A stretch of DNA of 33,232 bases, taken from the NCBI GenBank assembly GCA_017459425.1, contig JAFUCZ010000028.1, forward strand, positions 1-33,232, read 5' to 3'. A program made the position numbers and the translations under genes. The stretch comes from Bacilli bacterium. Its GTDB lineage: Bacteria; Bacillota_I; Bacilli_A; RF39; UBA660. The notes under the pieces were generated by a model. The model saw nothing but the letters and a program-made list of their open reading frames with translations, was not told where the DNA came from and searched no databases. Shown here piece after piece: positions 11,928 to 26,741 of this stretch (the first letter of the stretch is position 1; every line of letters starts with the position of its first letter).

Positions 11928-11947
11928 AAGTATAGATTTCTATACTT
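11928..11947 (-). terminator. Terminator of valS, containing its stop codon
   Basis: The 8-bp stem AAGTATAG/CTATACTT (11928-11935 with 11940-11947) has a four-base loop and a T-tract on the minus strand. The TAG stop of valS (11942-11940) is inside the first arm. Confidence 0.75.
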
Positions 11948-14360
11948 CTTTTTGATCATCTAACTCTATTTTATCAATAGAATAAATTTCTTCTATATCA
12001 TTTAATTTTAACTCTTCAATAAACAAAGTAGCTTTAAAATCTTTAATAGATTTTTCGATTGCATCTTTCAAATCATCGTTTACACTAATTTCTAATAATT
12101 TAATTGGTGTTTTAAGCGATAAATTATTATTTGATTTTTCTCCTCTAGCTTTAGAAATTATTTCATTAATAATATCTCCATTTTTTACTTCATTTTCAAA
12201 ACTAAAATCTAAAGGCTTTATTTCTGTCAAATGAATTGATTTATTATTATGATATATTTCTTGATAAATCTCTTCAGTAATAAATGGGAAAAATATACTA
12301 AAGTCTTGTAAAAATTTATGAAGTAATATATATACTGTTTTTTGACCTGAATATCTAGGAATATCACCAAATTCTTCTGGTCTATATAATCTATGCTTTA
12401 CAATTTCTATATAATTATCACAGAAATTCCAGAAAAACTTTTCAAGAGTGTTAAGTGCTAAACCTACTTCATATTCATCAAGGTACTTTATAAATCCTTT
12501 TTCCATTTCTTGGAAACTTCCTAATATCCATTTATCTATATATTCATAATCATTAAATTCTTTATCCTCAAAATCACTTAAATGCATTTCTATAAACTTA
12601 GAAACATTCCATAATTTATTAACTAGTTTGCGGCCTCTAAGTAAAGTTTCATCACTATAAACTATATCTGTACCAAGTCTACCTGTTCCAGCCCAATATC
12701 TTACAACATCAGCTGAATAATTTTCTATTGCATCCATTGGTTCAATTTTACTATTTCCTTTTGATTTGCTTATTTTTTCGCCTTTACTTGCCATTACAAA
12801 TCCTGAAATCATTACATTATCCCAAGGACGAGTATTAAAATGATAAAAACTTTTAACAATTGTATAAAAATCCCAAGTTCTAATGATTTCAGAAGCATTT
12901 GTTCTTAAACTCATTGGTTTTAAAATATCTTCAAAATTATCTTTTTCGCCATATCTCATGTTGATTAAAGGTGTAATTGAAGATGTAGCCCAAGTATCCA
13001 TAACATCTGTTTCGGGGATAAACTCTTTACAGTTACATTTAGGACAACTATCTACTTTTGGTTTGTCAGATAATGGATTAACTGGTAAATCTTCAACTTT
13101 AGCAAATACTGGTTCACCACATTCTTTACAATACCATACTGGAAAAGGTACTCCAAAATAACGTTGTCTTGATATACACCAATCCCACATGATATTTTCA
13201 ACCCATTCATTATATCTATTTTGCATATGAGCTGGATGCCACTTAATTTCATTACCTATTTTAATGAAATCTTCTTTATGAGATATAGTATCTATAAACC
13301 ATTGTTTCATAACACTATATTCTACTTCTTTTCCACATCTTTCGTGTGTTTGAACTTCGTGTTCTAATTCTTCAATTTTAACTACAAACCCACCTGCTTG
13401 TAAATCTTCTATAATTTTCTTTCTAGCTTCTTTAATTTTTAATCCACCATAATTAGGTATTGAATCGATAATTTTACCATCATTTGTAAAAATATACTTA
13501 AGTGGCAAATTATATTTTTTCCACCATTCAATATCTGTTTGATCTCCAAATGTACAGCACATAACCACACCTGTACCTTTATCTATAGCTACTTTTTCAT
13601 CAGCCATAATTGGTACTTCTATATCAAGTACTGGTATATGTGCAGTCTTACCAATTAAATGTTTATGTTCTTCGTCTTGTGGATTTACAAACACAGAAAC
13701 TATTGCAGGTAATAATTCTGGTCTAGTTGTAGCAATTGTAAATTCTTCATTATCCTCAACAGTTTTAAAATTAATATAATTGAATGTTGTCTTAATTGTC
13801 TTTGTTTCAAGTTCAGCTTGAGCGATAGATGTTAAACATTCATTACACCATAGTGCTGGACTTTCTTTATGATAACAATGTCCTTTATCTATTAAATCTA
13901 AAAATGATCTTTGACTTATTTTAATTGTAGAAGGGCTTACGGTTTTATAGTGAATATTCCAATCAGTACTTACCCCTACCTTACTAAATAAGTTTTGGAA
14001 TTCCTCTTCATATTTGTCTGTAGTTTTATAGCATAACTTAGAAAATTCTTCTCTACCAATTTCATGTGCTTTTTTGCCTTGTTCTTTTTCAACTAGTCTT
14101 TCACTAGGAAGTCCATTATCATCAAATCCAAATGGATAAAAAACATTGTATCCTCTAAGTCTTTTATACCTGGCTACCATTTCTGTTTGAGTATATGAAA
14201 AAATATGACCTATATGAATTTTACCATTTACAGTTGGTGGTGGTGTATCAATTGAAAACACCTCTCTTTGATCAGGTTTAAAATCATATATATTCTTTTC
14301 TTTCCAATAATTTAACCATTTTTCTTCTTTTTCTTTTGCATTATATTTCTTATCTAACAT
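11940..14360 (-). CDS. valS: Valyl-tRNA synthetase, archaeal-like short form
   Basis: 806 residues. It charges tRNA-Val. Class I signatures are PPPTVNGKIHIGH (HIGH at 49-52) and KISKSKGN near residue 528. The editing domain (TIATTRPELLPA; GTGVVMCCTFGDQTD) lies between them. WYCKECGEP and CPKCNC form probable zinc knuckles before the KMSKS-type loop. DVMDTWATSS replaces the DTWFSS of ordinary bacterial ValRS. Together with the shorter length and the absence of a long C-terminal coiled coil, this points to the archaeal-type ValRS known in Rickettsia and some other bacteria. The HD gene upstream overlaps its start by seven bases, and both lie behind a T-box. Confidence is high for ValRS and moderate for the archaeal affiliation. 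Confidence 0.95.
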   Translation of the reverse strand: MLDKKYNAKEKEEKWLNYWKEKNIYDFKPDQREVFSIDTPPPTVNGKIHIGHIFSYTQTEMVARYKRLRGYNVFYPFGFDDNGLPSERLVEKEQGKKAHEIGREEFSKLCYKTTDKYEEEFQNLFSKVGVSTDWNIHYKTVSPSTIKISQRSFLDLIDKGHCYHKESPALWCNECLTSIAQAELETKTIKTTFNYINFKTVEDNEEFTIATTRPELLPAIVSVFVNPQDEEHKHLIGKTAHIPVLDIEVPIMADEKVAIDKGTGVVMCCTFGDQTDIEWWKKYNLPLKYIFTNDGKIIDSIPNYGGLKIKEARKKIIEDLQAGGFVVKIEELEHEVQTHERCGKEVEYSVMKQWFIDTISHKEDFIKIGNEIKWHPAHMQNRYNEWVENIMWDWCISRQRYFGVPFPVWYCKECGEPVFAKVEDLPVNPLSDKPKVDSCPKCNCKEFIPETDVMDTWATSSITPLINMRYGEKDNFEDILKPMSLRTNASEIIRTWDFYTIVKSFYHFNTRPWDNVMISGFVMASKGEKISKSKGNSKIEPMDAIENYSADVVRYWAGTGRLGTDIVYSDETLLRGRKLVNKLWNVSKFIEMHLSDFEDKEFNDYEYIDKWILGSFQEMEKGFIKYLDEYEVGLALNTLEKFFWNFCDNYIEIVKHRLYRPEEFGDIPRYSGQKTVYILLHKFLQDFSIFFPFITEEIYQEIYHNNKSIHLTEIKPLDFSFENEVKNGDIINEIISKARGEKSNNNLSLKTPIKLLEISVNDDLKDAIEKSIKDFKATLFIEELKLNDIEEIYSIDKIELDDQKEV

Positions 14361-15347: not shown

Positions 15348-15376
15348 ATTATAATAAAAATTAATTTACATGTCAA
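15348..15376 (-). promoter_or_regulatory. Consensus promoter of the T-box operon
   Basis: -35 TTGACA (15376-15371), exactly 17 bp, -10 TATAAT (15353-15348): a perfect SigA promoter. The TGA stop of the upstream Gly-rich gene (15375-15373) is part of the -35 box. Confidence 0.85.
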
Positions 15377-16494
15377 TTTATTTTTGTAATTCTAGCATGA
15401 CCATTACCATTATGTCCAATTGTTGTAGTTCCATCAGGTTGAATTTGACCTTCATAATTTCCTTTTTCATTAGTCCAATTATAACCTTCTCCATCAACCA
15501 TTTTAGTTTCAGTAAATACATATCCTAAATAATGATTTGAATCCTGTTTAAAACTAATACTACTACTTGTTGAATTCTCATCTATTGCTACACATCCATC
15601 ATGACCTGATATAAAAGATGATCCACTTCCTCCACCTGAAGGAGAAAATCCAGAATCAATTCCACCTTGTCCCCCAAAGTAACCAGATCCTCCACCTGAT
15701 GAATTTATAGTAGAACCAGAAGATCCAAATTTACCATATGTAGAAGTATCTGAATATGTATTATTTCCACCAGACATTTGTGAACCACCTAGTGGTTCTG
15801 GATGAGTAACAAACGTACAATTACTTGAATCATTTAAATGTTCACACCCATTTAAAATTATACCATTATTACCACTTAATCCTCCAGCATTAGAACCATT
15901 TGTATATGCATCAGTATCATAACTGTTATCAACTGTAAAATCTACTCCAGTTCCACCACCTGCTGCAACCATTATTCTAGTTTTTAAAGATTCGAAATTG
16001 TTCCAAGTACTATTTACTAATCTTACATCAGTAGCTCCTCCTCCAGAGCCAAGAATAGCACTACTATTAGAAGAAGAAGCTCCTCCTCCATTGAAAGTTT
16101 GGGTAAGTGCTGCTTCACCTTTTTGAGATTGCATTTTACCACTTTCTCCAACATATAAATATAAAATAGTGTTTTTACTTAAATCTATTAATCCTTCAGT
16201 ATAAGCACCAAATCCACCAGTACTTACATCATTACTTCCTCCACTAGCGCCCCAAAGTTGAATTTTATATTTACCATCACTTGGAACTATAAATTCTTGA
16301 TAATTGCCTGTATACATAAAATCCCATATTTTTTCATCTCCACTAGTTTCAAGGCTTTCTTTTAAATCTTTTTTTACTTTATCGAGTATTACTTTTCTAC
16401 TGCCAAGCATTCCAAGAATACCTAACAATAATATTAGGAAAACTACTAATATTGAATACATAATTGAAGATATTGCAAACCCTTTGTTATTCAT
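15373..16494 (-). CDS. Glycine-rich surface protein with a prepilin-like N-terminus
   Basis: 373 residues. The N-terminus MNNKGFAISSIMYSILVVF is like a prepilin leader (G/F cleavage site followed by a hydrophobic helix) but has Ser instead of Glu at mature position 5. After a short basic helix and a Trp/Tyr-rich start, the rest is a Gly/Ser-rich domain of the Gly_rich (PF12810) type. It has YKIQLWGASGG, LYLYVGESG, GGGATDVRLV, IMVAAGGG and a closing GSSFISGHDGCVA. Such domains occur in many surface proteins of gut Firmicutes; their ligands are unknown. It follows the second NAGPA gene by nine bases (ribosome site AGAGGTGG), closing a three-gene operon. A role as a minor pilin or surface adhesin is inferred. 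Whether the leader is cut by a prepilin peptidase is uncertain. Confidence 0.85.
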   Translation of the reverse strand: MNNKGFAISSIMYSILVVFLILLLGILGMLGSRKVILDKVKKDLKESLETSGDEKIWDFMYTGNYQEFIVPSDGKYKIQLWGASGGSNDVSTGGFGAYTEGLIDLSKNTILYLYVGESGKMQSQKGEAALTQTFNGGGASSSNSSAILGSGGGATDVRLVNSTWNNFESLKTRIMVAAGGGTGVDFTVDNSYDTDAYTNGSNAGGLSGNNGIILNGCEHLNDSSNCTFVTHPEPLGGSQMSGGNNTYSDTSTYGKFGSSGSTINSSGGGSGYFGGQGGIDSGFSPSGGGSGSSFISGHDGCVAIDENSTSSSISFKQDSNHYLGYVFTETKMVDGEGYNWTNEKGNYEGQIQPDGTTTIGHNGNGHARITKIN

Positions 16495-16503
16495 ATTCCA
16501 CCT

Positions 16504-17511
16504 CTATTTTACAATCCATGCGTTTGGTAGTGCTCTTTCACCAAATGAACCATCTGCTTTTATGCCACAAGGTTTATTATATAATTTACCATTAACTGTT
16601 AAAGTTGAAGAGGCTCCACCATCTAAATTAACTGCATTATACGCACCATAATTAGTAAGAATATCAATTAATTCACCCATGTCTGTACCTATACTATATC
16701 CTGGTTGTCTTCCATCTATTACAATAAATAATACTATTCCATCTTTTCTTTGAGCCAAAACAGTTCGTGGAGCAATACCCCATCCACCGTTTCCAACAAC
16801 ATTTGAAGCATTACCATTAATCATTAAAAATGGCCCAAATTCAACAGCATCTACTAATCCTTTAGAAATGGCAACACTAGCGCTTTCCCTAGTTAGTACA
16901 AGTACTCCATCTTTATTAAATCCAGCAAGTCCTCCACCGTGACCTGTAGTACCACCAGTATAAACTACTTTACCATTTTGTATTACTTGACCAGTAGGAG
17001 CTCCACCTGATCCATGTCCGCCAACATCAACAAATCCACTTGCATTCATTCCAATTATTGCATTATTATTTTCAGATAAAGCAGATAAAGTTTCACCTCT
17101 AGTACCTAAATATCTACTTGAAACTAAAGAAATTCTTTTAGAATCATATATTACAACCATATTACCTTTATAGCCACTTCCAGAAAGTGGAATTATTTTA
17201 TATAGACTATTACCTTTATCTTTTTTTAATATTTGTTCTTCATAAACTGAATCGTAAGTTGTTTTATTACTTTTAGAAAAATCAATATCGTCATTTGAGT
17301 TATTACTATCTTCTATCATATAATTACTTGCAAGTACTTTTTCTATTGTTGCTTTACTATATAAAGTGTATGCTAGATAATGATGACTTTTTGTAGTCAT
17401 TGCTGTAGTAATAAGTAAATTTCTAAAATAAGATATAGGGCCATAAGCTAAAAACAAACATGTAAACGCTAATAAATCTAAAATCGCACATATTATGACA
17501 CCTTTTTTCAT
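16504..17511 (-). CDS. Membrane-anchored phosphodiester glycosidase family protein (NAGPA domain), copy 2
   Basis: 335 residues, a paralogue of the gene at 188-1312. It has a shorter N-terminus (helix at residues 3-23), then the same juxtamembrane block (FRNLLITTAMTT, SHHYLA), a variable linker and the NAGPA domain with MNASGFVD, PRTVLAQRKDG, IDGRQ and NLDGGASS. The external catalytic domain probably acts on phosphodiester-linked sugars of wall polymers or lipids. It starts at ATG 17511 with a 4-base ATGA overlap with the stop of the pseudo-iPGM gene (ribosome site GGGGTG), which indicates tight translational coupling. The Gly-rich protein gene follows. Confidence 0.87.
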   Translation of the reverse strand: MKKGVIICAILDLLAFTCLFLAYGPISYFRNLLITTAMTTKSHHYLAYTLYSKATIEKVLASNYMIEDSNNSNDDIDFSKSNKTTYDSVYEEQILKKDKGNSLYKIIPLSGSGYKGNMVVIYDSKRISLVSSRYLGTRGETLSALSENNNAIIGMNASGFVDVGGHGSGGAPTGQVIQNGKVVYTGGTTGHGGGLAGFNKDGVLVLTRESASVAISKGLVDAVEFGPFLMINGNASNVVGNGGWGIAPRTVLAQRKDGIVLFIVIDGRQPGYSIGTDMGELIDILTNYGAYNAVNLDGGASSTLTVNGKLYNKPCGIKADGSFGERALPNAWIVK

Positions 17512-18818
17512 AATACACCCCTATCTGATATTTCTATCAATTTGTCTTCACGACTCTTATAATAGAAAAATCTACAAGTATATATTAGTATTAAAGAAAC
17601 AATAAAAACAATTGAAGCAATCATAAAAATCGAAGATTTTTTTATTTTTCTTTTTGATTTTATTTCAGGTTTAGATAATAACGAACGTCCTACCATACTA
17701 CTTGTTTTACTTAAACCAAGTAAATCTAATACGGTTGGAGCAACATCTGACATTCTACCAGAATTCAATGTCAATTCATTACTAGTAATTAAAAATGGTA
17801 TTTTTTTATCACCATAGCACGATGTCAATACAAGCATACCTGAATTTTCATTTACATAATCTAATATTTTATTTAAATTCTTTTCAATATTATAAGAATC
17901 ATTATAATATACAAATACAAAATCATAATTTCTATCATGTAATTCATCTAATAGTATTTGTGTAACGCTATTTGAATCTAAATTTTTAGTAGGCACTACT
18001 CTACATTTTTTTAAACTTTCTTGATCAATACCTATTAAAAGTTGTTTTAATCCTTTATCACTTAAATACGAAAATATTTTTTCATTGTTATCAATACTAA
18101 AAATCGAATTTTTTCTATTAAACATAAATGTATTTATTTCTAAAGAATCTATATAATATGGGCTATTTTTTTTATTAAATAAATCGAAAAAATCATTCAT
18201 TTCTTCATCTAAATCAAATAAAATTACAGAATCGGATTCTTTAATAACTCCATCTTTATCAAATATAGCTTCGGAGAAATTATCTTTCTTCATTAAAAAT
18301 TGATTATAATCATTAAAATTTTGTCCAATACCCTCTACTAATAAATTATAAACTTTATCCTTACTACTATCTAAGCTACAAATACTTGAAATAACACCAA
18401 AATCAGCTTTCTTTAGTACTAAGTTTAATTTATCTAAATAAACAAAGTCAGCTTGAGATAAAAATAAATGTAAATACACATCATATATTTTTTTAAGTCT
18501 ACAACCTTCAAGCAAAGAAACCAAATAATTAAATGAATTTCTATTAAGTGCCCCAACTAAATGTAGAGTTCTTTCACACTCGCCGACATCATTTAAAATA
18601 TAATTCAAGTTTAAATTTTCAAAAAATGTTCTACTTTTAATTTCATCATCTATTACATTATTTAACTTTTTACCACTAGTTAATTCGAGTAACCCAATTG
18701 TTTTACTCTCCACTTTATTTAAAAATGTACTTTGATAATTATTAAATAAAAAATCTAAATCTGATGAAATGTTCTTTTCATTTAAATTATTTACAACACA
18801 CATTACTATTGGACCCAT
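17508..18818 (-). CDS. Degenerate, tail-anchored iPGM-like pseudoenzyme
   Basis: 436 residues from the ATG at 18818 (site GAGGTAATT; an upstream TTG at 18851 in the same frame has none). The chain follows cofactor-independent phosphoglycerate mutase (GpmI) from end to end: PIVMCVVNN for VVLLILDGF, FFEN, LHLVGALNRN for LHLMGLLSDGG, VYLHLFLSQAD for VYVHAFLDGRD, SVILFDLDEEMN for the FNFRPDRAR block, KGLKQLLIG, CRVVPTKNLDS for the VPSPKV block, and MSDVAPTVLDLLGL. The metal ligands and nucleophile are gone: DG reads NN, the NSEVGH serine segment is missing, ADHG reads SCYG, and the HT site is absent. Residues 397-416 form a membrane helix, absent from GpmI. It cannot be a working mutase. It is coupled by a 4-base overlap to NAGPA copy 2. 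A structural or sensory role at the membrane is inference. Confidence 0.8.
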   Translation of the reverse strand: MGPIVMCVVNNLNEKNISSDLDFLFNNYQSTFLNKVESKTIGLLELTSGKKLNNVIDDEIKSRTFFENLNLNYILNDVGECERTLHLVGALNRNSFNYLVSLLEGCRLKKIYDVYLHLFLSQADFVYLDKLNLVLKKADFGVISSICSLDSSKDKVYNLLVEGIGQNFNDYNQFLMKKDNFSEAIFDKDGVIKESDSVILFDLDEEMNDFFDLFNKKNSPYYIDSLEINTFMFNRKNSIFSIDNNEKIFSYLSDKGLKQLLIGIDQESLKKCRVVPTKNLDSNSVTQILLDELHDRNYDFVFVYYNDSYNIEKNLNKILDYVNENSGMLVLTSCYGDKKIPFLITSNELTLNSGRMSDVAPTVLDLLGLSKTSSMVGRSLLSKPEIKSKRKIKKSSIFMIASIVFIVSLILIYTCRFFYYKSREDKLIEISDRGVL

Positions 18819-18841
18819 AATTACCTCTATTCTCAATATAC

Positions 18842-18847
18842 ATTTTA
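18842..18847 (-). promoter_or_regulatory. Possible extended -10 promoter of the pseudo-iPGM operon
   Basis: TGATAAAAT (TAAAAT at 18847-18842) has a weak -35 (TTTATT, 17 bp upstream). It lies about 25 bases before the chosen ATG and just after the terminator of the zinc-ribbon gene on the opposite side. Confidence 0.4.
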
Positions 18848-18877
18848 TCAAATTTATCGCATTTAATAAAGAAAAAA

Positions 18878-18902: not shown

Positions 18903-19403
18903 CTATTTATAAAATGAATATCTACCAATTATTGGAAGTTCATTTTCTTCATCATTTAAAGCATTATTAATTCCAATTATCATAAGAATCAAAATAGATA
19001 AGCCACCAATTAAAGAAATTATTCCTGCTAAAACATTTCCAACTATAGTTACATTAAACACACCAGTTGCATGTCCTAAAACATATTGTTCTGTTCTAAA
19101 TATACCATAAACTATTGATTGTAAAAAATTAGTTATCATATTTACAATTACACTATATATAGTTAAAATTATACCTTGTCCAACATGAAATTTTAATTTC
19201 ACATCATCTTTTTGTTTAATAAATAATCCTATTATCCATAAAATTCCAACATATGATAATGCTTTAAACACTTTAATATCATCTACTTTAGTTGAATTTG
19301 TATAAGTTTTACTCTTAACTACTGCATTAGTAGATGTCCCACAATTAGTACAAAACTTTGAATTATTTGAAATTTTTTTACCACATTTTTTACATACTGC
19401 CAT
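18903..19403 (-). CDS. Zinc-ribbon membrane protein
   Basis: 166 residues. The N-terminal zinc ribbon has CKKCGKK and CTNCG (about residues 4-22), followed by a flexible Thr/Ser linker and three to four membrane helices (about 45-62, 75-100, 115-145). The layout resembles zinc-ribbon/DUF4870 or Tic20-like small membrane proteins (KFHVGQGIIL motif). No function is known for them. The start follows AGGAGGATATTT. It lies 40 bases after spo0A, and I see no terminator between them, so it is probably co-transcribed with spo0A. A role in sporulation is possible only by association. Confidence 0.75.
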   Translation of the reverse strand: MAVCKKCGKKISNNSKFCTNCGTSTNAVVKSKTYTNSTKVDDIKVFKALSYVGILWIIGLFIKQKDDVKLKFHVGQGIILTIYSVIVNMITNFLQSIVYGIFRTEQYVLGHATGVFNVTIVGNVLAGIISLIGGLSILILMIIGINNALNDEENELPIIGRYSFYK

Positions 19404-19443: not shown

Positions 19444-20211
19444 TTAGCCAGATATTTTATGATATTCTAATCTTAACTTATCAGCAATTGTTACAATAAA
19501 TTCAGAATTAGTAGGTTTTGCTTTATCTATATCAACACTATGTCCAAATATTTCTTCCATCAAATCCCAATTGCCACGATTCCAACTAACTTCAATCGCA
19601 TGTCTTATAGCTCTTTCAACTCTAGATACAGTAGTATCAAATTTATAAGCTAGTTCTGGATATAATTCTTTAGTAATACCACCTATAGTTTCTGGATGTT
19701 CATATATTATACCTATTCCTTCTCTAATATATTGATAACCTTTTATGTGTGATGGAATTCCTAATTCATGTAAAATTTTAGTTATAGAAATTTGTAAATT
19801 GTTGTGATAAAAATCTATACTTTTGTTATCTAGTGTTTTGATTTTAAATGTATCTTTAATTCTCTTTTCTAAATCCATCAAATCAAATGGTTTAAGTACA
19901 AAATAATTAACACCAAATTCAGAAACTTGTCTAATAACTTCACTTGAATTATAACTAGTTGCTACAATAACATTTTTAGTTATATTTTTCTTTTTCATTT
20001 GTTCTAAAACATATATACCATCTTTTTTTGGCATTATTAAATCTAAAAGTATTAAGTCATAACTATTATTTTCACTTATTTTTTTAAAACCTTCTAGTCC
20101 ATCATACGCTACATCAACAATATCAATACAATCATTTTCTTTAAAATATTCTTTTACCATTTCAACTAAGTTTATATTATCATCAATCATTACTACCTTA
20201 ATCTTTTCCAT
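19444..20211 (-). CDS. spo0A: Spo0A, master response regulator of sporulation
   Basis: 255 residues. The N-terminal receiver domain has the acidic pair D10-D11, the phospho-acceptor D57 (LILLDLIMP), the Thr/Ser switch (VATSYNS) and the KPFDL lysine. The C-terminal Spo0A DNA-binding domain (about 140-255) has [19 protein letters not shown] and the recognition helix [15 protein letters not shown]. Phosphorylated Spo0A would bind TGTCGAA boxes and commit the cell to sporulation. A perfect box lies upstream of its own promoter, which suggests autoregulation. The start follows AAGGAGATTAAAAT. No phosphorelay kinase or Spo0F/Spo0B gene is in the window. Confidence 0.97.
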
Positions 20212-20318: not shown

Positions 20319-20344
20319 AAGAAGTAACTTAACGTATACTTCTT
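20319..20344 (-). terminator. Terminator of the pgk-tpiA operon, with the tpiA stop in its loop
   Basis: The 8-bp stem AAGAAGTA/TACTTCTT (20319-20326 with 20337-20344) has a ten-base loop and a T-tract on the minus strand. The TAA of tpiA (20331-20329) is in the loop. Confidence 0.7.
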
Positions 20345-21030
20345 ACTACATTTTTTAAACTAATACTTTTTGTGGATGCCTTGCCAATGAGGAATCCATC
20401 TACTTCAAGTGTTTTTAATGATTCAATATTATCATCACTAACACTACCTCCATATAATACACTAATTTCAGTATTAAATCTATCAAATATGGATTTTTTT
20501 ATAAACTTTACAATTTTTTGTGTAAACAAAATATCTTGTGTTACACCACTATTTATTGCATAAAAAGGTTCGTATGCAATTATAATGTTTTTAATTTTAG
20601 ATTCATCTATTTTAAAAATCGTTTCTTTTAACCTGTTTAAAATGATATTACATGCAATATCAAAATCACATTTTTCTATTTCCCCTACACAAAAAATTAC
20701 TTTTAAATCATTATGAAGTGCATTATCTATTTTTTTGTTAATTATATCTGTTGTTTCGTTTAAATTAATTAATCTTTCATTATGAGAAATCATTACATAA
20801 TTTATCCCCATAGATTTAACTAAAGATGCGGTTATTTCACCTGTAGTTATTTCATTTAAATAACTAATATCTTGCACTCCTAAATTAAAACCTTTAAATA
20901 ATGTTAAATATATATTACTAGGTATAAATATAACATCATCTTTTATGTCTTTAATTTCATTTAAATACATAAGTGTATCAGGATAATTCATATAATTTTT
21001 AAGGTTTGCTACGATCATTTTATTTTCCAT
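20329..21030 (-). CDS. tpiA: Triosephosphate isomerase, divergent
   Basis: 233 residues, about 15-20 shorter than usual. It interconverts DHAP and glyceraldehyde-3-phosphate in the cytoplasm. Active-site residues are in place: N9 and K11 (ANLKNY), H83 (ISHNER), E154 (IAYEPFYAINSG, the loop-6 region), and the phosphate-binding YGGSV and GFLIGKAS. Normally invariant positions have changed: N-L-K for N-W-K, SHNER for GHSER and PFYAINSG for PVWAIGTG. It is probably active, since all catalytic residues remain, but kinetics may differ. The neighbouring pgk (two genes upstream) supports the role. It overlaps the GT4 gene by 11 bases, and its start follows GAGGTTACC. Confidence 0.93.
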   Translation of the reverse strand: MENKMIVANLKNYMNYPDTLMYLNEIKDIKDDVIFIPSNIYLTLFKGFNLGVQDISYLNEITTGEITASLVKSMGINYVMISHNERLINLNETTDIINKKIDNALHNDLKVIFCVGEIEKCDFDIACNIILNRLKETIFKIDESKIKNIIIAYEPFYAINSGVTQDILFTQKIVKFIKKSIFDRFNTEISVLYGGSVSDDNIESLKTLEVDGFLIGKASTKSISLKNVVRSIR

Positions 21031-22260: not shown

Positions 22261-23289
22261 TCACCTTTGTTTAGTTGACCCTTTCTTTTTTAAAGCCAAT
22301 AAAATCGCACCCGTAAATAAACCTAAATAATATGTTAAGAATCTCCATAAAATCATTATTGCAGTTAACTTACTACTACCTAAAAAATTACCATAAAATT
22401 TTATAAATGCATATTCAAGTCCACCAGAACCACCTGGAATTGGGACAAATGAACCTATAAGCATAACATATGCGCTTGTAACAACTGCTTCAACCAAATT
22501 AAAGCTACTGTAATCACCTATTGAATATAATAAAATTAATGGTGTCATATATAAAATAATTAAAGACGCAAAATTAATTAAAATCATATTAATAAAATGT
22601 TTTTTATCTTGTAATAATTTTTTTGCTCCTACATTAAATTCAGATAAATTTCCTTCTAATTTATCTATAACTTCATCTTTATTCTTTACAACATTCATTT
22701 TTGATAAAACATTTATTATAAATTTTACAACAACTTTATGTAATCCTTTACAAAATGTAAGGGCAAAAAGCGCTATTATTACAAAAGTATTTATAGCAAA
22801 TCCTAAGATAATTAAATTTTTTAATAAAGATACATTAGAATACAAATTCAAAAATGAATTAGTTATAAATGCAAAAACACCAAGTAAAACTAATGCAATT
22901 TGATATACAATAAAATTTTGTATAGAAATATTTGTAACATCGCTAATACTTATATTTTCTTTTTTAAGTGAATATATTTCATATGGTTGTCCACCTGATG
23001 CAAAAGGTGTTATAGCGTGGAAAAACTGTGTTTCAACTACTAACCTTAAAGCATTTTTATATTTATAATCACTTTTAAACTTTTTAGTAATGCTATACAT
23101 TGATACACCACGTATCATCCAATAAACTACTATCATTAAAATTCCTAATAAAATAAATAATTTATTTGAACTTAAAAGTACATCTACTGTTTCATTAAAA
23201 TTATCCTTTAAACAGAAATATAATACTAATCCGCTTATTAAAAATAATACTAAAATATTTATAATTGTTTTTTTAGTTTCCTTGTTCAT
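22261..23289 (-). CDS. Flippase-like integral membrane protein (UPF0104/LPG_synthase_TM family)
   Basis: 342 residues with about eight membrane helices. The family motifs RGVSMYSI, TQFFHAITPFASGGQPYEIY and PIPGGSGGLEYAFI are clear. This is the domain found in the flippase half of MprF and in YbhN/AglD-like proteins thought to move lipids or lipid-linked sugars. It lacks the soluble aminoacyl-transfer domain of MprF. Next to a glycolipid glycosyltransferase, transport of a glycolipid is a reasonable inference. It overlaps the end of pgk by 17 bases. The start (ATG 23289) lies inside the last codons of pgk. Confidence 0.88.
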   Translation of the reverse strand: MNKETKKTIINILVLFLISGLVLYFCLKDNFNETVDVLLSSNKLFILLGILMIVVYWMIRGVSMYSITKKFKSDYKYKNALRLVVETQFFHAITPFASGGQPYEIYSLKKENISISDVTNISIQNFIVYQIALVLLGVFAFITNSFLNLYSNVSLLKNLIILGFAINTFVIIALFALTFCKGLHKVVVKFIINVLSKMNVVKNKDEVIDKLEGNLSEFNVGAKKLLQDKKHFINMILINFASLIILYMTPLILLYSIGDYSSFNLVEAVVTSAYVMLIGSFVPIPGGSGGLEYAFIKFYGNFLGSSKLTAIMILWRFLTYYLGLFTGAILLALKKKGSTKQR

Positions 23290-24457
23290 TAATCACATCA
23301 ATCCCATCCATTTTTTTACCTTCTAAAAGTTCTAATGTAGCTCCACCACCAGTTGAAATAAAAGTAACTGAATCTTCATATCCTAAGTTTTTAACAGCAC
23401 TTCCAGTATCGCCACCACCAACTATTTTTATAGCATCAATACTCTTTAATACTTCACATAAAAGGCATGTTCCTTTTGCAAATGTTTCATTTTCAAAATA
23501 TCCTACAGGTCCATTCCATAAAATAGTTTTACTATCGCTTAAATAACTTTTAAATAGTTTAATTGTATTATACCCAATATCAAGTCCAATTTCATTATTT
23601 TTTATTTCATTAATAAAGCATGTTCTAGATTTTTTTGAATCTAGTGTTTCTCCATTTACACTGTCAATTGGTAAGATTATCTTATCACTATATTTATTTA
23701 ATAAATCTTTACAATATTCAACACTATCATTATCAACTATCGATGCACCTACATTAATATCTCTACTTTTTAAAAATGTATATGCCATTGCTCCACCAAT
23801 TAATATGTAGTCTGCTTTTTTTACAAGTGTTTCAATAACTCCTATTTTATCACTTACCTTTGCGCCTCCAAGAATTACGTTAAAAGGTCTTTTAGGATTA
23901 TTTAAAACATTCTCAATATATTTTAATTCTTCTTCTATTAAAAATCCTATCCCATTTGGTAAATTAGACGCAATTCCTACATTAGAAGCATGTGCTCTAT
24001 GTGATGTACCAAATGCATCATTGATAAAAATATCACCTAGTGATGCCCAATATTTGCCTAAAGAATCATCATTACTACTTTCTAATTTACCATTTAGATC
24101 TTCAAATCTAGTATTTTCCATTAAAATAATATCTCCCGGTTTCATATTATTAACGGCTTGTTCTAATTTTTCACCTCTAGTAGTATCAATAAACAACACA
24201 TTTGTTTTTAGTATTTCTTCTAATCTTATTGCTACAGGTTTTAATGTATTTTTTAAATCATTTTCGTCTTTAACTCTACCAAGATGAGACATTAAAATTA
24301 CTTTAGCCCCATTTTCTTTAGCGTATTTAATTGTTTTTATACTTTTTACTATTCTACTATCATCAAGTATGATACCATCTTTAATAGGAACATTAAAATC
24401 AACTCTAATTATAACTTTTTTATTTTTTAAATCATAATCTTTAATTGTTTTTTTCAT
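23273..24457 (-). CDS. pgk: Phosphoglycerate kinase
   Basis: 394 residues, the standard length, from the ATG at 24457 (ribosome site GGTGA). An ATG at 24469 would overlap the pilin gene and has no site. It makes ATP from 1,3-bisphosphoglycerate. Motifs: IRVDFNVP, SHLGR, ENTRFEDL, NDAFGTSHRAHAS, ILGGAKVSDKIGV, WNGPVGYFE, GGGDTGSAV and FISTGGGATLELLEG. It is followed by the flippase-like, GT4 and tpiA genes with overlaps or gaps under six bases, so glycolytic and envelope functions share a transcript. Confidence 0.97.
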   Translation of the reverse strand: MKKTIKDYDLKNKKVIIRVDFNVPIKDGIILDDSRIVKSIKTIKYAKENGAKVILMSHLGRVKDENDLKNTLKPVAIRLEEILKTNVLFIDTTRGEKLEQAVNNMKPGDIILMENTRFEDLNGKLESSNDDSLGKYWASLGDIFINDAFGTSHRAHASNVGIASNLPNGIGFLIEEELKYIENVLNNPKRPFNVILGGAKVSDKIGVIETLVKKADYILIGGAMAYTFLKSRDINVGASIVDNDSVEYCKDLLNKYSDKIILPIDSVNGETLDSKKSRTCFINEIKNNEIGLDIGYNTIKLFKSYLSDSKTILWNGPVGYFENETFAKGTCLLCEVLKSIDAIKIVGGGDTGSAVKNLGYEDSVTFISTGGGATLELLEGKKMDGIDVINEQGN

Positions 24458-24458
24458 C

Positions 24459-24827
24459 TTATTCACCATTTTCTATATATGAATAACTATATTCAACATT
24501 ACCATTTTGATCAGTGTTAGGCGTTACTTTAATACTATCATTTAATATACTTTTATTTGTTTTTGGATTTTTGATATTATCTTTTATAAATCCTTCGCTT
24601 ATTAAAGTTTGAGTTGATATTACTTCTTCAGAATTAATTTCAACATTATTAGTTTCTATGTAAGTTTCTGTACTTAAATAAAGATTTTCTTTAAAGTTTT
24701 CATAATCTTTGTCACTTGTTCTTTTTACAGTATTTGAAATTGTAACAAATGAAACTATTCCGATTAAACCTATTACAACAAGTACTCCTAGTAATTCTAT
24801 CAAAGTAAAACCTGCTCTTTTTTTCAT
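24459..24827 (-). CDS. Prepilin-like protein, small
   Basis: 122 residues. The leader MKKRAG precedes FTLIELLGVLVVIGLIGIV with Glu5, and an acidic, Asn-rich globular part (STETYIETNNVEINSEE) follows. It is probably a minor pilin or pseudopilin. Its stop lies one base before the pgk start, so it heads the pgk-flippase-GT4-tpiA operon, an unusual place for a pilin gene. The start follows AAAGGTGAT. It shares little with the other two prepilins beyond the N-terminus. Confidence 0.88.
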   Translation of the reverse strand: MKKRAGFTLIELLGVLVVIGLIGIVSFVTISNTVKRTSDKDYENFKENLYLSTETYIETNNVEINSEEVISTQTLISEGFIKDNIKNPKTNKSILNDSIKVTPNTDQNGNVEYSYSYIENGE

Positions 24828-25706: not shown

Positions 25707-25729
25707 AATTCTATCAAATTGATAGAATT
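25707..25729 (-). terminator. Terminator of gap, overlapping its stop codon
   Basis: The 10-bp stem AATTCTATCA/TGATAGAATT (25707-25716 with 25720-25729) has a three-base loop and is followed by T4 on the minus strand. Two bases of the gap TAA (25730-25728) are in the stem. Confidence 0.8.
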
Positions 25730-26741
25730 AATTATCTAAATACTTACCTAAATATTTAGCTGTTCTAACCATTTGAGCACTATAACCCATTTCATTATCA
25801 TACCATGCAACTATTTTTACAAGTTGTTTATTATCAACTTCAAGTACATTAGTTAAAAGTCCATCAACTAAAGCACCAACAGTTGAACCGATAATATCAC
25901 ATGAAACTATAGGATCAAATGTTATTTTTAAAGTATCATTTTGATTATTTAAAAACAATCTATTAACTTCTTCTACACTTGTATTTCTATTTAATTCTAG
26001 TGTCAAATCAACAACTGAACCATCAGTAGTTGGAACACGTAATGCACTACCATCCATTTTACCATTTAATGAAGGTATTACCTTACCAATAGCGCTTGCA
26101 GCTCCAGTAGAAGATGGAATAATATTAGCTGCTCCTGCTCTTCCACGACGTGCTTTAATTCCTTTTTTATGTGCTACATCAAGAATTGTTTGGTCATTAG
26201 TATATGCATGAACGGTTGTCATATATCCTTTAGTTATTCCAATATTTTTATCAATTATATTTAATACTGGTGCCAAACAATTTGTAGTACAACTTGCTGC
26301 ACTAATAACTTCTTCTGTTCCATCTAAAATATCATTATTTACGTTGTAAACTATTGTTTTTAAATCACCTTTAGCTGGTGCACTAATTATTACTTTTTTA
26401 GCTCCAGCTTTAATATGTGCATAAGCCTTTTCTTTATCAGTAAATAAACCTGTACATTCAAAAACTTCATCAATTCCAAGTTCACCCCATGGTAAAGTAG
26501 ATGGATCTGTTTTTGAATATACTTTTATTTTTCTATTACCTACTATTATTTCATTATCACTAAATGATATTTCATCTACTCTATAATTTCTATGCGATGT
26601 GTCATATTTAAGTAGATGCGCTAATTGTTCAGCATCTGTTAAATCATTAATTGCTACGACTTCAAATTCTGGGTCTTCTTCCATTATTCTAAATACAAGT
26701 CTACCAATTCTTCCAAATCCGTTAATTGCTACCTTTATCAT
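25728..26741 (-). CDS. gap: Glyceraldehyde-3-phosphate dehydrogenase
   Basis: 337 residues. NAD-binding NGFGRIGR is at the N-terminus, the catalytic C151 is in AASCTTNC, the partner His is in TVHAYTNDQ, and GRAGAANIIPSSTGAA binds phosphate. ASP/Asn positions (INDLTD at 31-36) suit NAD rather than NADP. It performs the oxidative step of glycolysis. It lies 14 bases after the TGS-kinase gene and ends in its own terminator. pgk and tpiA are in the next transcription unit. Confidence 0.97.
   Translation of the reverse strand: MIKVAINGFGRIGRLVFRIMEEDPEFEVVAINDLTDAEQLAHLLKYDTSHRNYRVDEISFSDNEIIVGNRKIKVYSKTDPSTLPWGELGIDEVFECTGLFTDKEKAYAHIKAGAKKVIISAPAKGDLKTIVYNVNNDILDGTEEVISAASCTTNCLAPVLNIIDKNIGITKGYMTTVHAYTNDQTILDVAHKKGIKARRGRAGAANIIPSSTGAASAIGKVIPSLNGKMDGSALRVPTTDGSVVDLTLELNRNTSVEEVNRLFLNNQNDTLKITFDPIVSCDIIGSTVGALVDGLLTNVLEVDNKQLVKIVAWYDNEMGYSAQMVRTAKYLGKYLDN

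Follow-up and report, generated by a model that had tools for sequence, protein, structure and literature searches.

The window studied here, that is, the whole analysed stretch of 33,232 nt (contig JAFUCZ010000028.1 of a Bacilli bacterium, GTDB lineage RF39; UBA660), carries on its minus strand the gene order gap–(two ORFs)–pgk–LPG-synthase-TM–glycosyltransferase–tpiA–spo0A–zinc-ribbon protein–pseudo-GpmI–NAGPA. The genes for glyceraldehyde 3-phosphate dehydrogenase (gap, 25728..26741; PF00044 and PF02800), phosphoglycerate kinase (pgk, 23273..24469; PF00162, E = 1.3e-140) and triosephosphate isomerase (tpiA, 20329..21030; PF00121, E = 3.9e-45) are followed by spo0A (19444..20211; TIGR02875, 273 bits), which adjoins gpmI in many relatives, and by a gene for a zinc-ribbon membrane protein (18903..19403). 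Next come pseudo-GpmI (17508..18818, 436 aa), a dead protein of the iPGM fold with a C-terminal membrane anchor, and NAGPA, a phosphodiester glycosidase with an N-terminal hydrophobic anchor (16504..17511; PF09992, E = 1.1e-39). The end of pseudo-GpmI overlaps NAGPA by four bases (17508–17511), and tpiA lies approximately 1.5 kb upstream, both as described in a sequence-only reading of this DNA that preceded our analysis. The start of pseudo-GpmI is the ATG at 18818, with a good ribosome-binding site (AGAGG) ahead of it; an alternative TTG start at 18851 (17508..18851) would add 11 residues, giving 447 aa.

Several other genes of the window deserve mention. A second NAGPA paralogue, 48% identical, is located near the contig end (188–1318), and NAGPA homologues are present in 92 of 145 genomes. 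The product of the gene after NAGPA (15373–16494) combines a pilin-like hydrophobic N-terminus with a glycine-rich domain of the ALK/LTK type (PF12810, E = 6.7e-48), which is unusual in bacteria. A full Spo0A is encoded within the glycolytic cluster (19444–20211) of a 1.1 Mb genome, and G028 has two tandem copies (G028:C32:7093-8712).

In relatives, the order in the same slot is spo0A, intact gpmI, a surface protein with a transmembrane segment and a DUF6273 domain, and NAGPA. This intact-gpmI version is found with tpiA and spo0A upstream in G016 and G098, and on a shorter contig in G116; spo0A adjoins gpmI in several more genomes. As relatives carry an intact gpmI in this slot, the tpiA gene 1.5 kb away belongs to an ancestral glycolytic cluster, and pseudo-GpmI is the altered resident gpmI of this gap-pgk-tpiA-spo0A cluster.

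The sequence-only reading had listed GpmI landmark motifs and a full-length alignment with GpmI. The motifs are present, pseudo-GpmI is collinear with intact GpmIs over its full length, and both profile and structure comparisons agree with this assignment. The protein matches iPGM_N with E = 2.7e-4, which is under the Pfam cut-off, and TIGR01307 with E = 5.8e-11 and 41.5 bits, compared to the curated cut-off of 330.65 bits; GpmI entries of PDB match it by sequence with E ~1e-8. An AlphaFold model (mean pLDDT 85, pTM 0.74, with 61 aligned sequences as input) retrieved the GpmI structure 1EJJ in Foldseek (E = 2.1e-25), and ranks 1–19 were all GpmI, the sole strong fold match. DeoB (phosphopentomutase) and the sulfatases of the alkaline phosphatase superfamily, which are catalytic, show a distant fold likeness but are far poorer matches (E ~1e-5 or weaker). 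The two-domain iPGM fold is present in the predicted model, with a TM-score of 0.57 and rmsd of 7.0 to 1EJJ, values that may reflect a changed relative orientation of the two domains. Thus, pseudo-GpmI shares with GpmI/iPGM (TIGR01307; PDB 1EJJ, 4MY4) the two-domain fold, full-length collinearity and the gap-pgk-tpiA locus, while its PGM part is more than 100 residues shorter and a C-terminal membrane helix is added. Because its score is below the cut-off and the catalytic residues are lost, it falls outside the GpmI equivalog family TIGR01307.

For the active site, we considered 15 catalytic and ligand residues of the Geobacillus enzyme (Asp12, Ser62, His123, Arg153, Asp154, Arg185, Arg191, Arg261, Arg264, Lys336, Asp403, His407, Asp444, His445 and His462), mapped onto pseudo-GpmI by way of its intact counterpart in the same genome. 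Fourteen of the fifteen are lost, the sole aligned survivor being Asp154, in a gappy stretch, so that the loss of all catalytic motifs proposed earlier is borne out. Ser62, Asp12, Asp403, His407, Asp444, His445 and His462 are each replaced or deleted, and His123, Arg153, Arg185, Arg191, Arg261, Arg264 and Lys336 are all lost too, but H117, D196 and G263, among other structural invariants, are retained. In intact GpmIs of the family all 15 residues are kept in 21 proteins out of 22, and 14 in the remaining one. With metal site and substrate pocket both gone, neither catalysis nor phosphoglycerate sensing by the old pocket would be expected from pseudo-GpmI.

The latter point bears on the suggestion that pseudo-GpmI senses 3- or 2-phosphoglycerate and reports the glycolytic state to the membrane. 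The glycolytic locus, the membrane anchor and the neighbouring spo0A fit such a role, and in Bacillus subtilis the 3PGA pool of spores is reported to be set by inhibition of PGM (PMC9864370). Still, the seven substrate-binding residues from His123 to Lys336 listed above are all absent, which makes sensing of 3-phosphoglycerate unlikely; the sequence-only reading had raised sensing in general terms, and sensing of a glycolytic ligand is not supported, being the reading to which we give the least credence.

An intact gpmI was found on another contig of the same genome (G000:C25:186106-187587, 499 aa, 667.5 bits). The nearest kin of this C25 gene are gpmI of G118 and G091 (66–67%), whereas for Spo0A and NAGPA the nearest genomes are G002 and G116. 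C25 gpmI may be a horizontally acquired replacement, an idea advanced only tentatively because individual genes can move on their own in this family, as a leucyl-tRNA synthetase-like protein illustrates. The latter, encoded at 11940–14360 of the window, is 84–86% identical to its counterparts in G085, G010 and G118, and only ~32% identical to those of most other tested family members; two types of the protein alternate across the family, a pattern probably due to horizontal replacement.

With an intact paralogue present, pseudo-GpmI could be a decaying pseudogene of a redundant gpmI, with the frame still open and chance read-through into the anchor of the neighbouring gene. Its occurrence in one genome only, its long branch and the missing DUF6273 ectodomain are in line with this. 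On the other hand, the frame has no internal stops, with 98 identities in 376 aligned columns (26%) to the intact paralogue, whereas in a simple simulation of neutral substitution, taking the intact gene to 30% identity, each of 600 runs yielded at least 16 stops (mean 30–37). All 19 indel events between the two paralogues are in frame, and the ribosome-binding site and codon periodicity are intact (GC by codon position 0.32/0.25/0.13, similar to that of neighbouring genes). By this computation, the open frame is what neutral decay would not leave. The confident fold prediction and the purifying selection that appears to keep dead GpmIs in many relatives (see below) also speak against decay, which we therefore consider improbable. 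Neither close orthologues of pseudo-GpmI nor a second instance of its exact arrangement were found in one genome of the genus, GTDB contigs and 386 genomes of the family; hence, the case for selection on pseudo-GpmI itself rests on ORF retention and not on dN/dS.

The membrane helix, described previously as a gain at the C-terminus, was recovered as the single hydrophobic segment of the protein (residues 397–415). It is preceded by KSKRKIKK, and by the positive-inside rule the GpmI-fold domain is predicted to be cytosolic. The basic linker and helix together (residues 387–420 of the ATG form, 17559..17660, minus strand) are homologous to the N-terminal anchor of DUF6273 proteins. The tail of pseudo-GpmI matches an anchor profile, built from 16 DUF6273-locus proteins encoded between gpmI and NAGPA in relatives, with 34.9 bits (E = 1e-9), compared to the best score of 8.4 bits among 2000 shuffled tails. 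Judging by this homology, what remains of the neighbouring DUF6273 surface protein is its anchor, now the helix of pseudo-GpmI, and the ectodomain is gone: no profile match to the outer domain was found in pseudo-GpmI, and NAGPA begins, in the overlap, approximately 20 residues after the helix.

Related arrangements exist in two genera other than that of the window. In genus g158 (G160, G264, G341, G401) and in G130 a single open frame of 943–965 codons encodes GpmI, the transmembrane anchor and DUF6273 (ORFs at L101:130-2967 and L102:6094-8925; G264, G341 and G401 were recognised by open-frame length). In these fusions, as in pseudo-GpmI, the GpmI domain is followed by the same anchor, but the fusions keep the catalytic motifs and the DUF6273 outer domain, and pseudo-GpmI has neither. 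The complete sequences of the G160 and G130 fusions were examined: each retains every catalytic motif and runs from the anchor into the outer domain, identified in G160 as DUF6273 with E = 7.5e-6; both lie directly before NAGPA. The fusion is the only GpmI-type match in each of the five genomes at the thresholds used. It is apparently a glycolytic enzyme tied to the membrane and seemingly active, and a plausible natural intermediate on the way to pseudo-GpmI.

This re-use of the fold is not an isolated case. Dead GpmIs are found, with a profile of divergent homologues, in approximately 46 of 386 genomes of the family, and a scan of GTDB contigs yielded 94 species with the N-terminal motif of this clade (‘FLINGFGIE’) and a confirmed match, of which 80 loci were kept; most are titled as MAGs of gut Bacilli or Mycoplasmatota, e.g., Candidatus Faecisoma and Candidatus Scybalousia. 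All eight clade matches in a class-level sample of 395 genomes fall inside the family of the window. Clade-profile scores separate the dead members (327–598 bits) from intact GpmIs (at most 271 bits). Among 37 aligned clade members, most keep none of the 15 functional residues, the maximum being three; Asp12 is replaced by Asn in 33 of the 37, and ADHG, by S-x-Y-G or S-x-F-G. For one member, structure prediction (pLDDT 92) likewise gave a model whose sole strong structural match is GpmI. Within genera, dN/dS is ~0.1–0.35 (NG86, with some dS values saturated), indicating that the clade is under purifying selection. The absence of a described family, as supposed earlier, is confirmed to the extent that the clade has no name in Pfam or NCBIfam and that no paper on an iPGM-derived pseudoenzyme was found in the open-access literature searched.

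Among the 18 carriers of dead members in a sample of 145 genomes, an intact gpmI is present as well in 14, and gpmA in its place in G115; in G019, G013 and G065, possibly incomplete genomes, neither gene scores above the cut-offs. The basal branches of the clade have a C-terminal membrane helix, and the remainder, a lysine-rich tail, the last 20 residues of members lacking the helix having a net charge of +4.2 compared to +0.1 for neighbours (p = 3e-29). Membrane targeting of these members by an amphipathic helix was considered and rejected, the hydrophobic moment being no higher than background (p = 0.83). A second recurring neighbourhood, in some genera, has genes for a DUF1538 membrane protein and a P-II-like protein downstream of the dead GpmI (L114:4979-7117, also L150, L180 and L187).

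Conservation at the former metal site raises the possibility that pseudo-GpmI, with its fold of the alkaline-phosphatase superfamily, catalyses a different reaction: in the dead clade the old metal-site positions hold a conserved Asn and Ser-x-Tyr-Gly, and therefore seem to be under selection. However, no conserved cluster of Asp/His metal ligands and no nucleophile are left, and conservation elsewhere mostly concerns structural invariants that intact GpmI also has, so we regard a new activity as very improbable.

The relationship of pseudo-GpmI to this clade is less straightforward. It has lost catalysis like the clade and carries both clade marks, N10 in place of Asp12 and S333-C-Y-G336 in place of ADHG, the TSCYG string being identical in G096 and G314, and it shares the C-terminal membrane helix with a part of the clade. 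At the same time, clade members are just 16–27% identical to it, most of them reside at other loci, and most have the lysine-rich tail and no helix. It may be a true clade member, catalysis having been lost once in a common ancestor, and its locus and anchor may then be ancestral or later acquisitions. Besides the shared marks, this is favoured by an outgroup-rooted tree, where pseudo-GpmI joins the dead clade with SH-aLRT 100, albeit with long branches, and by a placement ~29 log units better than that with an intact fusion. Conversely, pseudo-GpmI scores higher on the intact-GpmI profile than on the clade profile (84 vs. 47 bits), joining it to GpmI of G130, G003 or G160/G139 is not rejected by the AU test (p ~0.12), and synteny favours an origin in situ. 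We give clade membership somewhat less than an even chance. Catalysis may have been lost either once or several times; in G125, which has an intact gpmI elsewhere, a further dead GpmI (447 aa, no anchor) lies directly after spo0A (L165:3952-5295) and may represent an independent loss at the same locus. In any case, clade membership concerns origin and is compatible with a non-catalytic, membrane-bound mode of action.

Coupling with NAGPA was suggested by the sequence-only reading. A linkage outside the glycolytic cluster exists in genus g124 and its relatives in GTDB, where a dead GpmI is followed by DUF6273 and then by NAGPA, making two separate linkages, counting the window. Yet NAGPA is within the fetched flank of only 8 of 80 dead-clade loci, most of the clade being located elsewhere, and in the window the proximity could be nothing but inherited gene order, which explains a part of the pattern. 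Hence, the gene-order data are only suggestive of functional coupling. As a possible sporulation-related NAGPA we considered ShfP, and rejected it: its catalytic domain is calcineurin-like, NAGPA being only an occasional fusion partner in ShfP relatives (PMC11188070).

Taken as a whole, we consider it probable, if not securely so, that pseudo-GpmI is a former cluster gpmI that lost catalysis, was joined to the DUF6273 anchor and now serves as a membrane-held non-catalytic module. We infer both the order of events and the action without catalysis. C25 gpmI would have carried glycolysis, after which the cluster gpmI could lose catalysis; it would have been joined to the anchor of the adjacent DUF6273 surface protein, with loss of the outer domain of the latter. 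The intermediate would be a GpmI-TM-DUF6273 fusion, which became pseudo-GpmI by losing both catalysis and the outer domain. The cytosolic GpmI-shaped domain, held beneath the membrane, would act by contact. The role that fits best is membrane-bound docking without catalysis: pseudo-GpmI would receive protein partners as a docking or regulatory module, similar to pseudoenzyme scaffolds, and scaffolding is a possible, putative function. The likeliest partner would be the co-encoded surface-glycan system (NAGPA), or else the module might place other proteins at the membrane. More tentatively, and rather doubtfully, the fusion may first have tethered an active enzyme in this lineage of uncultured gut Bacilli, a redundant copy then becoming a maintained dead membrane protein that works with the surface phosphodiester glycosidase. 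If so, the family would hold intact soluble, intact tethered and dead tethered forms of one enzyme.

Pseudoenzymes are well known among kinases and phosphatases. Pipelines may call dead GpmIs phosphoglycerate mutase or hypothetical, and as a result the glycolysis of uncultured genomes may be misjudged. Dead versions of the enzyme in no fewer than 80 related species suggest that an old metabolic fold has found a new, unnamed use, and the series of a soluble enzyme, a membrane-fused enzyme and a dead membrane protein within one bacterial family allows the route from enzyme to non-enzyme to be tested directly.
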